Of a DNA stretch of 64,000 nt, positions 51,520-63,094 are shown piece after piece. The first letter of the stretch is position 1, and the number at the start of each line of letters is the position of its first letter. This stretch comes from Romboutsia hominis (GTDB taxonomy: Bacteria; Bacillota; Clostridia; Peptostreptococcales; Peptostreptococcaceae), in assembly GCF_900002575.1 (NCBI RefSeq), contig NZ_LN650648.1, positions 2,457,565-2,521,564 of the forward strand. Direction: 5' to 3'. The notes under the pieces are model-generated. The model did no database searches. It saw nothing but the letters and a program-made list of their open reading frames with translations, and had not been told where the DNA came from. The position numbers and the translations under genes are program-made.

Positions 51520-52284
51520 TTAACTAATATATGATTTTAATTTAGCTAATACTTTTTTCTCTATTCTAGAAACTTGTACTTGAGATATATTTAACATATC
51601 CCCAATTTCACTTTGAGTTTTATCTTCAAAATATCTAAGCATTATTATCTGTCTTTCTCTTTTTTCTAATTTGCCTAAAACTTCTTTTAAAAGAAGATTA
51701 TCTATTACTTTCTCTTCTTCACACTCTCCCTTTAAGCTAATCTTATCTATTAAGCAAATTGGATTTCCTTCTTCTTCATGTATAACTCCATGTAAATACT
51801 CTACAGAAAAATTAGATTCCATTGCCATAACTAAGTCTTCTTTTTCCACTTCTAATACATTAGCTATTTCTTCTATACTTGGTTCTCTTCCTAGTTTCTT
51901 ACTAAGTATTTCGCTTTGTGTTTTAGCTTTTATAGCTATTTGCTTTAAAGACCTAGATACTTTTACCATTCCGTCATCTCTTAGATATCTTTTTATTTCT
52001 CCTAATATCATTGGTACAGCATATGTAGAAAACTTTACATTAAACTTAGGATCAAACTTATATATAGCCTTTATTAAACCTATTGATCCTAATTGAAATA
52101 AATCATCTCTATCATAACCTATATTTAAAAATTTAGTTACAACACTTCTAACTAATCCTAGATTGTTAGTTATTAGTATTTCCTTAGCTTCCTCATCTCC
52201 ATTTTGTGCTTTATCTATTAATTTTAATGTTTCTTCATGACTAAGCAATACTCTCTTTTCTTCTTTTATTGCAATTATCCCCAT
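51520..52284 (-). CDS. sigF: sporulation sigma factor SigF
   Basis: 254 residues. Earliest forespore-specific sigma factor. Region 2 (NNLGLVRSVV, DLFQLGSIGLIKAIYKFDP, FSTYAVPMILGEIKRYLRDDG) and region 4 (LRYFEDKTQSEIGDMLNISQVQVSRIEKK) are complete. Held inactive by SpoIIAB. Third gene after spoIIAA and spoIIAB; 25 bases after spoIIAB. SD AGAGGTT. Followed by a strong terminator. Confidence 0.98.
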   Translation of the reverse strand: MGIIAIKEEKRVLLSHEETLKLIDKAQNGDEEAKEILITNNLGLVRSVVTKFLNIGYDRDDLFQLGSIGLIKAIYKFDPKFNVKFSTYAVPMILGEIKRYLRDDGMVKVSRSLKQIAIKAKTQSEILSKKLGREPSIEEIANVLEVEKEDLVMAMESNFSVEYLHGVIHEEEGNPICLIDKISLKGECEEEKVIDNLLLKEVLGKLEKRERQIIMLRYFEDKTQSEIGDMLNISQVQVSRIEKKVLAKLKSYIS

Positions 52285-52309
52285 AATAAAACCTCTATTC
52301 TTTTGGACT

Positions 52310-52738: not shown

Positions 52739-52751
52739 TTTGTATTCCCCC

Positions 52752-53084
52752 TTATATAGAACTTACTACTTCATCTGTATTGTTTATGTCTATAATTTTA
52801 TTCATTCCAGATAAATTAAATACTTTCTCAACTCTTTCATTTGCATTTATTATAGATACTTTTCCACCTTCAGCTGATATTTTTTTGTATCTACCTATAA
52901 TTACACCTATCCCTGATGAATCCATAAATTTAATATTTCTAAAATCAAATATTATGTTTTTTATAGGCTTAGATAGTAATATATTATCTATTTCATCTCT
53001 AACCTCATTTGTTATATGGTGGTCTAGTTCTGTAAATACAAACTCTATTGTTAGAGTTTTTTGTTCTAAGTAGTAGTTTATCAT
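52752..53084 (-). CDS. spoIIAA: anti-anti-sigma factor SpoIIAA
   Basis: 110 residues, STAS fold. Target serine for SpoIIAB phosphorylation lies in [15 protein letters not shown] (S57 or S58). Dephosphorylated SpoIIAA displaces SigF from SpoIIAB. First gene of the operon, under the sigma-H promoter at 53124-53153. Confidence 0.97.
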
Positions 53085-53123
53085 TTGTATCCCCCCTGAT
53101 TATTGAGTATATTAACTCTTAAT

Positions 53124-60999: not shown

Positions 61000-61061
61000 T
61001 TCTTGTTGTTTTTCTTAAAAATTCAACTTCTTCTTATTATTTTTCTTAAAGATTCAACTTC
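61000..61061. repeat. 31-bp tandem duplication at the cysteine desulfurase 3' end
   Basis: 61000-61030 and 61031-61061 differ at only three of 31 positions, all transitions. The copy inside the gene encodes EVESLRKIIRR; the outer copy, in the frame of the first one's reading, would encode EVEFLRKTTRRR followed by TAA. Confidence 0.9.
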
Positions 61062-62174
61062 CTCTTTAAGTATTTTTACAGCTTCTAAAATCTCTTCTTC
61101 TGTATTTAAATCTGATAAGCTAAATCTTATAGCTCCTTCTATTTCTTCATTAGTTAATTTCATTTGAGTTAGTACATGACTTCCTTTTTTCTTAGAAGAA
61201 CATGCAGAACCTGTAGATACATACATACCTTTTTGCTCTAAGCAATGAAGTAACACTTCTCCTTTTATATCTTTAAATGAGATATTAAGTATATGACACA
61301 CTCCATCTTCTGGAGAATTTATTTTTATATCTTCTATATTTTTAGATATTTCTTCTTTAAGTAAATTCTTTAAAGAAGATATTTTTTCTATTTTAGAATT
61401 TAAATCATCATTTATAATTTTTATAGCCTCGCCTAATCCATATATACCAGGTGCATTTTCTGTCCCTGCTCTTACACCGATTTCTTGTCCCCCACCAGTT
61501 AACATAGGTTTTATCCTGTTAGTTTCCTTTATATACATAAATCCTATACCTTTAGGCCCGTGGAATTTATGCCCACTAACACTCATAAAATCTATATTAT
61601 ATCTTGATGGTCTAAAGTTTATCTTAGAATATGATTGAACTGCATCTACATGTAAATAAACTTTGTCTTTTAATGACTTAAGGTACTTACCTATTTCTTG
61701 GATAGGTTGTATGGATCCTACTTCATTATTTACGTGCATTATAGTTACTAAGCATGTAGTAGGCTTTATAGCTTTTTTAAGTTCCTCTAAATCTATTTTA
61801 CCTTCTCTATCAACATCTAAATATGTTACCTCACATCCATCGTTTTCTAAATCCTTTAATGTATTTAAAACTGATGGATGCTCTATACTCGTAGATATTA
61901 TATGGTTTTTTCTTTTTTTATGTAGATTGACTACACCTCTAATTATAGTATTATTAGATTCTGTTCCTCCTGATGTAAAGTAAATTTCTTTATCCTTAGC
62001 ACCTAAAGTTTTAGCAATCTCACTTCTTATGGCTTTTATATTCTTTTCTACCTCAACACCCTTTCTATGTAAAGATGATGGGTTTGCGTAATCATGGCTA
62101 AGTGCATAAACAACTTTTTCAATAACCTCACTATATGGTTTAGTTGTTGCACTATTATCTAAATATATTTCCAT
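61023..62174 (-). CDS. cysteine desulfurase family protein (NifS/IscS-like)
   Basis: 383 residues. PLP enzyme that takes sulfur from cysteine. The PLP lysine is in SVSGHKFHGPKGIGF and the catalytic cysteine in STGSACSSKKKGS (long-loop, class I type). Directly upstream of thiI (gap about 50 bases), so it most likely supplies persulfide for s4U. The C-terminus is altered by a 31-bp duplication. ATG at 62174 is preferred over a GTG at 62183. Not clearly the main Isc desulfurase, as no iscU or iscR is near. Confidence 0.92.
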   Translation of the reverse strand: MEIYLDNSATTKPYSEVIEKVVYALSHDYANPSSLHRKGVEVEKNIKAIRSEIAKTLGAKDKEIYFTSGGTESNNTIIRGVVNLHKKRKNHIISTSIEHPSVLNTLKDLENDGCEVTYLDVDREGKIDLEELKKAIKPTTCLVTIMHVNNEVGSIQPIQEIGKYLKSLKDKVYLHVDAVQSYSKINFRPSRYNIDFMSVSGHKFHGPKGIGFMYIKETNRIKPMLTGGGQEIGVRAGTENAPGIYGLGEAIKIINDDLNSKIEKISSLKNLLKEEISKNIEDIKINSPEDGVCHILNISFKDIKGEVLLHCLEQKGMYVSTGSACSSKKKGSHVLTQMKLTNEEIEGAIRFSLSDLNTEEEILEAVKILKEEVESLRKIIRRS

Positions 62175-62492
62175 ATTTTTCACCAGCTTCCTGTATTAAG
62201 TATTTATATAAATTCAAAATTATTCAAATATGTTTTATTTATTCTTTCCAATTTATAAATTATTTTATCAAATTGAAATAAAAATTTTATCTATTATATA
62301 TTAACCTAAATAGACTTATTTATTATATCATATTTACGTTATTTTTTAAGGTTTAATAATAATATTACTAAATATATATTAAATATAATTGTTGTTTTAT
62401 TTTATATATTCACTTATAATTTTAACTTAATAATTATAAATTATCACTATTTTGTAGAATTGTAATTTTTTTCAATATTTTTCTTTAAAGTA

Positions 62493-62521
62493 TTGATTTT
62501 CATGTCGAAATTTGATAATAT
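62493..62521 (+). promoter_or_regulatory. promoter of sRNA-like unit 1 with Spo0A box
   Basis: TTGATT (62493-62498), 17-base spacer, TAATAT (62516-62521) preceded by TG-A (extended -10). The exact Spo0A-box heptamer TGTCGAA occupies 62503-62509, inside the spacer. The same order occurs in unit 2. Confidence 0.7.
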
Positions 62522-62527
62522 ATAAAC

Positions 62528-62640
62528 ATGGTTATCCCCCTGATAACCTTAGTAAAATCTCTATTCCCAATACCCCTTTTAAATGAATATTTAATTCATT
62601 TAAGGCCTACTTCAGATCGGAAAAGAAGTAGGTTTTATTT
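62528..62640 (+). ncRNA. candidate C-rich small RNA, unit 1
   Basis: Predicted RNA of about 113 nt starting near 62528. Its 5' end folds as GGTTATC-CCCCT-GATAACC (62530-62548), followed by a C-rich single strand (ATTCCCAATACCCC), an AAATGAAT/ATTCATTT hairpin and an intrinsic terminator CCTACTTC/GAAGTAGG with a T-run. It has no open frame of note. C-rich loops of this kind pair with Shine-Dalgarno sequences in RsaE/RoxS-type sRNAs of Firmicutes; the match here is of type, not of identity. I know of no family name for it. Confidence 0.6.
62606..62640 (+). terminator. terminator of sRNA-like unit 1
   Basis: CCTACTTC (62606-62613) pairs with GAAGTAGG (62625-62632), followed by TTTTATTTTT. Confidence 0.85.
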
Positions 62641-62683
62641 TTATAATTTTCGTTTGACAATAAATTAACTTTCTTGAAAAGTA

Positions 62684-62712
62684 TTGATTTTTATGTCGAA
62701 ATTTGATAGTAT
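62684..62712 (+). promoter_or_regulatory. promoter of sRNA-like unit 2 with Spo0A box
   Basis: TTGATT (62684-62689), 17-base spacer and TAGTAT (62707-62712) preceded by TG-A. The Spo0A-box heptamer TGTCGAA lies at 62694-62700. It has the same spacing as in unit 1. Confidence 0.7.
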
Positions 62713-62718
62713 ATAGAC

Positions 62719-62860
62719 ATGGTTATCCCCCTGATAACCTTAATTAAAATCTCTATTCCCAATACCCCTTTTGAACGGATAAACTTTATATCCATTTTAT
62801 CAAGTTGATAACGGAAATCAACTTGATAGCAAAAAAGAGCTTCCCCGAGCTCTTTTTTTT
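62719..62860 (+). ncRNA. candidate C-rich small RNA, unit 2
   Basis: Predicted RNA of about 142 nt starting near 62719. The first ~55 nt match unit 1 closely, with the same GGTTATC-CCCCT-GATAACC hairpin (62721-62739) and C-rich ATTCCCAATACCCC. The 3' part differs: a 12-bp stem (62798-62809 with 62817-62828) and the terminator AAAAAAGAGCT/AGCTCTTTTTT (62832-62858). Conserved 5' seed and divergent tail fit a duplicated sRNA. No open frame of note. Confidence 0.6.
62832..62860 (+). terminator. terminator of sRNA-like unit 2
   Basis: AAAAAAGAGCT pairs perfectly with AGCTCTTTTTT around TCCCCG, followed by TTT. Confidence 0.92.
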
Positions 62861-63094
62861 TATATAATAAAATATAAATTATTTTAATGAGTATATATTT
62901 TACTAAAATTTTTGACTTTGAATATTTTCTTATAAATTTTAAAAGTTCTTTATATACTAAGTATAATTTCATTTTTATTTTACATTTATCGTCTTTTTTT
63001 GCAATCCTCTAACTTTTTATCTATATTTCTATGAGTTTTACTTTCTTTTTAATAAATAATTAACTTTATTTAACATGCTTATATAGTTTTTTTT

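Follow-up and report, generated by a model that had tools for sequence, protein, structure and literature searches.

The two units described here lie between a cysteine desulfurase gene of the NifS/IscS type (61023-62183, minus strand) and an asparaginase gene (63147 onward, plus strand; PF00710). The gap is part of a 64,000-nucleotide stretch of the Romboutsia hominis genome, which we call the window. The initial annotation had placed two near-copy units at 62484-62580 and 62674-62773. Near copies they are, with positions 62487-62557 93% identical to 62678-62748 and positions 62553-62589 92% identical to 62745-62781. The predicted RNAs, however, reach beyond those ends, to about 62641 and to 62862. 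We refer to the units as A1 and A2, with the following features.

62493-62641, plus strand: sRNA gene A1 overall, promoter to end.
62493-62521, plus strand: A1 promoter, with the -35 TTGATT at 62493-62498 and TGTCGAA at 62503-62509.
62516-62521, plus strand: TAATAT of the A1 extended -10, TGA-TAATAT, which ends at 62521; read from the sequence.
62528-62641, plus strand: sRNA A1, supported by its fold (z -4.5) and by homologues; start inferred at about 7 nt after the -10.
62530-62548, plus strand: 5' hairpin of A1.
62549-62577, plus strand: C-rich single strand of A1.
62578-62602, plus strand: hairpin of A1.
62605-62633, plus strand: terminator hairpin of A1, with a T-rich tail.
62684-62862, plus strand: sRNA gene A2 overall, promoter to end.
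62684-62712, plus strand: A2 promoter, with TTGATT at 62684-62689, TGTCGAA at 62694-62700 and the -10 TAGTAT at 62707-62712; read from the sequence.
62719-62862, plus strand: sRNA A2, supported by its fold (z -7.2), the terminator scan and homologues; start inferred.
62721-62739, plus strand: 5' hairpin of A2.
62740-62776, plus strand: C-rich single strand of A2.
62777-62793, plus strand: hairpin of A2.
62797-62829, plus strand: hairpin of A2, loop AACGGAA.
62831-62858, plus strand: terminator of A2.

In both promoters the spacer is 17 nt long and holds TGTCGAA, as the initial annotation had read it, and a TG one base before each -10 makes these extended -10 elements. The same 19-nt hairpin, GGTTATC-CCCCT-GATAACC, occupies 62530-62548 in A1 and 62721-62739 in A2. 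The fold of A1 (62524-62640) and that of A2 (62716-62862) were each better than 200 of 200 dinucleotide shuffles. The terminator-like hairpin of A1 was seen by folding and was not listed by the consensus terminator scan, because its loop is longer than the scan allows. The proposed layout of an identical hairpin, a C-rich strand and separate terminators is upheld by sequence, folding and the terminator scan together. It is the anatomy of a C-rich trans-acting sRNA, with its own promoter and terminator, structured ends and a C-rich strand. No transcript has been seen, and transcription is inferred.

An ATG stands just upstream of the hairpin in both units, which could point to a gene for a small protein. 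No Shine-Dalgarno sequence accompanies it, the start codon is not conserved, and the linker between the hairpin and the C-rich segment varies in length by amounts indivisible by three, with A1 and A2 themselves an example. The initial annotation had found no conserved reading frame, and we agree; with linkers that break the frame, a small protein is ruled out, and we give the idea next to no weight. A mobile repeat is ruled out as well, as a DNA search of this genome found no close copies besides A1 and A2. The AGATCGGAAAAG stretch in the A1 terminator was considered as a sequencing adapter and rejected, since relatives carry GATCGG there.

A third paralogue, which the initial annotation did not have, adds to the two that it described. 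This paralogue, B, was found by covariance model (E 0.0035) on the minus strand at G000:C1:729115-729192 (locus L219), unlinked to A1 and A2, and has counterparts in 12 relatives. Its hairpin, GGTTATT-CCCCT-AATAACC, is kept through compensatory change. It carries extra C-runs and a terminator loop with GATCGG or similar, and TGTCGAA is present in all 13 paralogue B promoters read. In this genome B faces a gene on the opposite strand, with no same-strand gene within 500 nt.

CGG or CGGA (GATCGG, AACGGAA) recurs in 3' hairpin loops of the three paralogues and many relatives, in A1 at 62614-62624 and in A2 in the loop of 62797-62829. One could read RNAs with such loops as sponges for a CsrA-type protein, on the strength of the GGA or CGG in a 3' loop. 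The second family examined (f10) and many other homologues lack the loop motif while keeping hairpin 1 and the C-rich strand, and we regard a sponge as very unlikely.

Homologues of the RNA are widespread. DNA search recovered it in 56 of the 71 genomes of the family, covering 22 of 23 genera. With a covariance model of 64 positions, it was found in 62 of the 71 at E<=0.1 (G012, at 0.0089, and G043, at 0.046, being weak). The model also matched 257 of the 393 genomes of the order (E<=0.001) and 22 of the 391 of the class (E<=0.01), the latter including several weak matches. A covariance search was among the checks that the initial annotation had proposed. A pattern scan of the genome collection returned 102 stretches. 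Among the 80 of these with titles listed are Clostridioides difficile, Metaclostridioides, Romboutsia, Paraclostridium, Tepidibacter and Peptacetobacter, together with Tissierella, Soehngenia, Alkaliphilus, Natronincola and Geosporobacter. At one Paraclostridium benzoelyticum locus (L101) the unit occurs in three tandem copies.

An alignment of 32 distinct sequences shows CCC-AATACCCC almost invariant. The search pattern that selected these sequences demanded GGTTATCCCC-like letters and TCTATTC, and it accounts in part for the invariance of GGTTATCCCC and TCTATTC within the set. The second family has TCTAATC in place of TCTATTC. Among close homologues the hairpin hardly varies and no covariation was found. 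It appears with the distant members and paralogue B, where three of the seven pairs have changed on both sides. Across 11 hairpin types, 97.4% of cells pair. The covariation score exceeds that of every one of 500 shuffles and every slid control; 45 of the 500 shuffles reach the observed number of doubly changed pairs. Three loci from one other genus (L231, L232 and L234) match the model weakly (E about 0.001-0.004). They have a GGTTATTGACCATATAACC hairpin, a TTCTCAATACCC segment and a terminator, with TGTCG (TGTCA in one) directly before the -10, and are possibly a distant branch of the family.

No Rfam 15 family scored above its gathering threshold for this RNA in the window or at loci L219, L231, L234, L226 and L059, and the scan of the window, also proposed at the outset, matched rRNA and tRNA alone. 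A known RNA family is in this sense ruled out, and the earlier remark that no named family fits holds for Rfam 15. With sequence and structure conserved across an order and beyond, the view of A1 and A2 as paralogous RNA genes is well supported. The family is genuine and widely conserved, and as Rfam 15 has no name for it, its homologues in annotated genomes are probably unlabelled. We found no description of the RNA in the literature, for which only open-licence PMC papers were searched; the portions available of PMC3649979, PMC7438776 and PMC11109978 name nothing that could be placed at the RNA locus. The C. difficile copy, whose locus is flanked by genes for an amino-acid ABC transporter and a cysteine desulfurase, may already carry an nc number.

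The gap had been called otherwise empty, and this needs qualifying, because an asparaginase gene oriented like the units bounds it, so that a role in cis cannot be set aside. The units could be terminated leaders, or attenuators, acting in cis on the downstream gene, most often asparaginase, with any trans role secondary. A same-strand asparaginase gene follows in 64 of 86 collection loci, namely those with at least 900 nt of sequence (13 were too short and left out), and its start lies a median of 207 nt after the hairpin start (n=65; nearest 122 nt). Ten loci were read by eye from translations; within their 3 kb, nine have a desulfurase gene like that of the window and six have an asparaginase gene. 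In the second family, at L226 and L227, a different gene starts soon after the terminator. However, 22 of the 86 loci lack such a gene, the three C. difficile records with enough sequence (L076, L080 and L145) among them, and most of the 22 have no other same-strand gene close by. Each of the two tandem units has a terminator to itself, no partner for the conserved segment is evident in the variable terminator stems, and a leader would leave the sigF and spoVE sites given below unexplained. The loci with no such gene, together with the unlinked paralogue B, argue against a leader as the main role, and as a full account it is quite unlikely. The frequency of a same-strand gene downstream nevertheless makes an added cis function possible. 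Part of the conservation may serve the asparaginase gene, and the RNA may double as a terminated leader for whatever gene follows.

The initial annotation had linked the units to Spo0A through the box in the spacer. The 0A box is TGNCGAA. Across 120 homologous promoter rows, some genomes being included twice, TGTCG is found in 107, and the next two bases vary. We tallied box against Spo0A in 99 RNA-bearing genomes, all scanned for Spo0A_C, with the second stretches of three genomes left out. Spo0A was matched in 81 of the 87 genomes with TGTCG and in all four with a one-mismatch box (L157 and three Metaclostridioides mangenotii, a species in which Spo0A is present and the box reads TGTCC). The box is gone from eight genomes, Soehngenia, Gudongella and Peptacetobacter hominis among them, while the -35 and -10 are kept; only two of the eight have Spo0A, and both proteins are divergent (137 and 66 bits). 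The difference between 81 of 87 and 2 of 8 gives a Fisher value of 2.6e-5, uncorrected for ancestry.

The same association is seen in 40 RNA-bearing genomes of the second family. There TGTCG occurs in 12 of 20 genomes with strong Spo0A matches, in none of 12 without Spo0A and in none of eight with weak matches (12/20 vs 0/20, Fisher 4.5e-5, again uncorrected). The rule used, TGTCG on either strand within 70 nt, was set after the sequences were seen. In the home family, the RNA is kept and the box lost in g11 (three genomes; Spo0A none or weak), and in g14 none of nine genomes has a Spo0A match and none has the RNA except for the weak G043 match. The six box-bearing genomes without a Spo0A match are four MAGs, one draft and one 1.0-Mb record. 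In G081 (locus L238), which is rated 100% complete, TGTCGAA is present without a Spo0A match; either Spo0A was missed or the box is used by another regulator.

The RNA itself also follows Spo0A across the order. It is present in 145 of the 156 genomes whose Spo0A match is strong (E below 1e-39), in 49 of 86 where the match is weak and in 63 of 151 where there is none. All of these box, RNA and Spo0A counts ignore shared ancestry. A 0A box in the promoter that is associated with Spo0A across genomes, and lost in most of the genomes read that lack an intact Spo0A, is what a member of the Spo0A regulon should have, and the family meets this, with only TGTCG constant. The comparative evidence for Spo0A control of the family is strong, in the absence of binding or expression data.

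The direction of that control is inferred. Spo0A could activate the RNAs, which would then serve as a timer or brake after the onset of sporulation in an incoherent loop. Spo0A-activated promoters usually have the box abutting the -35. In the second family (L330-L349), TGTCGAA is often just upstream of or abutting the -35, or on the opposite strand, and not in the spacer, and activation there is as likely as repression. In this genome and the box-bearing loci read, by contrast, the box lies inside the spacer by a good extended -10, favouring repression. From this position between -35 and -10, bound Spo0A~P would most simply exclude RNA polymerase, a block that is inferred from known Spo0A promoters. 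We consider activation unlikely, though it stays in play.

We searched for targets, as the initial annotation had also suggested, in the leaders (-30 to +10) of 364 genes of this genome, called by a simple gene caller in 20 stretches, the window and spo0A. Targets were ranked by contiguous-helix scans in place of RNAduplex without accessibility, which was uninformative (spo0A ranked 11, 15 and 1 of 51). For the linear segment of A1, the best two of the 364 leaders were those of spoVE (-19.4 kcal/mol) and sigF (-17.9), the third reaching -13.6; for A2 the values were -19.4 for spoVE, -14.6 for sigF and -13.9 for the third. The predicted spoVE site, TTGGGAATGGAGGT, covers the ribosome-binding site. 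Three predicted sites lie in the window.

52284-52300, minus strand: predicted site GAATAGAGGTTTTATTA in the sigF (spoIIAC) leader, 17 contiguous pairs with A1 and 14 with A2; it covers the ribosome-binding site, and the gene is named by TIGR02885.
53091-53100, minus strand: predicted site ATCAGGGGGG in the spoIIAA leader (TIGR02886), 10 pairs with the hairpin loop and 3' arm.
52746-52752, minus strand: weaker predicted site AGGGGGA in the spoIIAB leader (TIGR01925), 7 pairs with the hairpin loop.

Of the 364 leaders, spoIIAA ranked 6 for A1 and 5 for A2, its pairing being equalled by 21 and 25 of 300 shuffles. The spoIIAB leader ranked 37 for both, and spo0A only 41, 42 and 48 for A1, A2 and B. 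At the spo0A site, though, a G-run of at least five is found in 30 of the 32 RNA-bearing genomes read, vs 2 of 7 without the RNA and 8 of 50 window genes. The spo0A leaders examined (L239-L258) have a strong G5-6 ribosome-binding site and GUG, UUG or AUG starts. Energy alone does not make the case. Of 200 shuffled linear segments, 31 found a leader with which they paired equally well and 28 equalled the second best; the corresponding whole-unit shuffles were as good in 97 and 89 of 300. Because shuffles often reach such energies, the case rests on gene identity and conservation. No shuffled segment of 200 matched both spoVE and sigF as well, and no shuffle of 300 paired as well with sigF.

The motif GAATRGAGG occurs eight times in 464 kb, both strands counted, and falls in a scanned leader only for spoVE and sigF. 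Within the family it is present in 13 of 22 sigF leaders and 12 of 20 spoVE leaders, and outside it in 1 of 29 and 0 of 10. Clostridioides sigF lacks GAATRGAGG, and the Clostridioides RNA is altered at the place that would face it. Of the 39 genomes in which the RNA gene and sigF were listed on a single contig, 38 have the RNA gene 3.7-27 kb from the best sigF match. The exception is G228, of the second family, whose sole sigF match is 847 kb off and may be sigG. A further 14 genomes have the RNA and sigF on different contigs and stand outside this tally. The suggestion that the RNAs could pair with Shine-Dalgarno regions is borne out as far as complementarity goes, the C-rich segments matching ribosome-binding sites by sequence alone. 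The evidence that the RNA targets sporulation genes is good but unproven, and pairing in cells is inferred.

The RNAs could instead be growth-phase C-rich sRNAs, RoxS/RsaE-like, that damp many genes with G-rich sites in metabolism, envelope and transport, merely turned off by Spo0A and with sporulation genes a minority of the targets. C-runs match any G-rich site, and 8 of 50 window genes have a G-run of at least five. Leaders of murA, a PTS IIC gene, a DUF554 gene and a VanW-like gene also rank at the top. Since 63 of the 151 genomes that lack Spo0A retain the RNA, it must also have a task outside sporulation. Against a purely general role, the two best partners of the linear segment are sporulation genes whose site is kept in relatives, and the RNA gene lies near spoIIA in 38 of 39 genomes. 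We think a general role doubtful, although it remains a serious possibility.

On balance we lean, by a little, toward A1 and A2 as trans-acting C-rich sRNAs of one old family that are repressed by Spo0A~P and restrain the translation of sporulation genes during growth. Growing cells would make the RNAs, and Spo0A activation would end their synthesis. The 5' hairpin would offer its CCCCU loop and the following strand would offer AAAAUCUCUAUUCCCAAUACCCCUUUU. Paired to G-rich ribosome-binding sites, these would stop translation, chiefly that of sporulation genes. Predicted pairing is with sigF and spoVE through the linear segment, and with spoIIAA, possibly also spo0A, through the C-runs. Spo0A activates transcription of spoIIA. 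If it also lifts the RNA brake, the two effects would form a double-negative loop that sharpens commitment. Growth-phase activity and an effect on sporulation are, like transcription and repression, inferences made without expression data.

A broader proposal is that an old sRNA near spoIIA, repressed by Spo0A~P, is a core sporulation brake of Peptostreptococcales and Tissierellales. It would silence translation of spo0A, spoIIA and spoVE and make commitment switch-like, with three paralogues bearing different seed arrays in this family. We put this forward tentatively, at somewhat under an even chance. How the sporulation decision is taken in clostridia without a Bacillus-type phosphorelay is an open question, as stated for C. 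difficile in the available part of PMC10267692. An RNA conserved from Clostridioides to Tissierella and Alkaliphilus offers a concrete, testable layer of that decision. Its promoter box tends to vanish with Spo0A, and the best partners of its linear segment are sigF and spoVE.

Several known sRNAs invite comparison. RsaE/RoxS present C-rich single-stranded motifs (UCCC/CCCC) to Shine-Dalgarno regions, and such motifs are common to them and the RNA described here. The RsaE/RoxS model (RF01820) aligns weakly to the RNA over its full length. It gives 24.9 bits (E 0.09) and 20.4 bits, well short of the 79 bits (gathering score) that would mark a member. The 5' hairpin of RsaE/RoxS is unlike that of the RNA, and we know of no Spo0A box for them. 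LhrC and the Cia-dependent csRNAs resemble our family in that a single response regulator governs several near-identical paralogues rich in C or CU; the regulators, the bacteria and the non-sporulation targets are different.

Another comparison is with SpoY of C. difficile. As far as the available part of PMC10267692 describes, SpoY and SpoX bind spo0A mRNA, and SpoY blocks the G-rich spo0A ribosome-binding site and represses translation, its overexpression lowering sporulation; spoIIAB, sigE and sigG were also enriched in the C. difficile Hfq interactome. Like the RNA described here, SpoY is an sRNA aimed at G-rich ribosome-binding sites. It is, however, 5'UTR-derived and shares its start with CDIF630_00827 (PMC10267692, available part), whereas the unit at the one Clostridioides locus compared (L041) ends in its own terminator, and the next same-strand open frames downstream run antisense to a transporter gene. 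SpoY was rejected as the C. difficile homologue on this context alone, from a source available in part, and identity is not excluded by sequence. SR1 of Bacillus subtilis is likewise an sRNA that restrains sporulation, through a block of kinA translation (PMC8501984, available part). It differs, by the same partial account, in being dual-function and peptide-encoding, and it belongs to another organism and acts on other targets.
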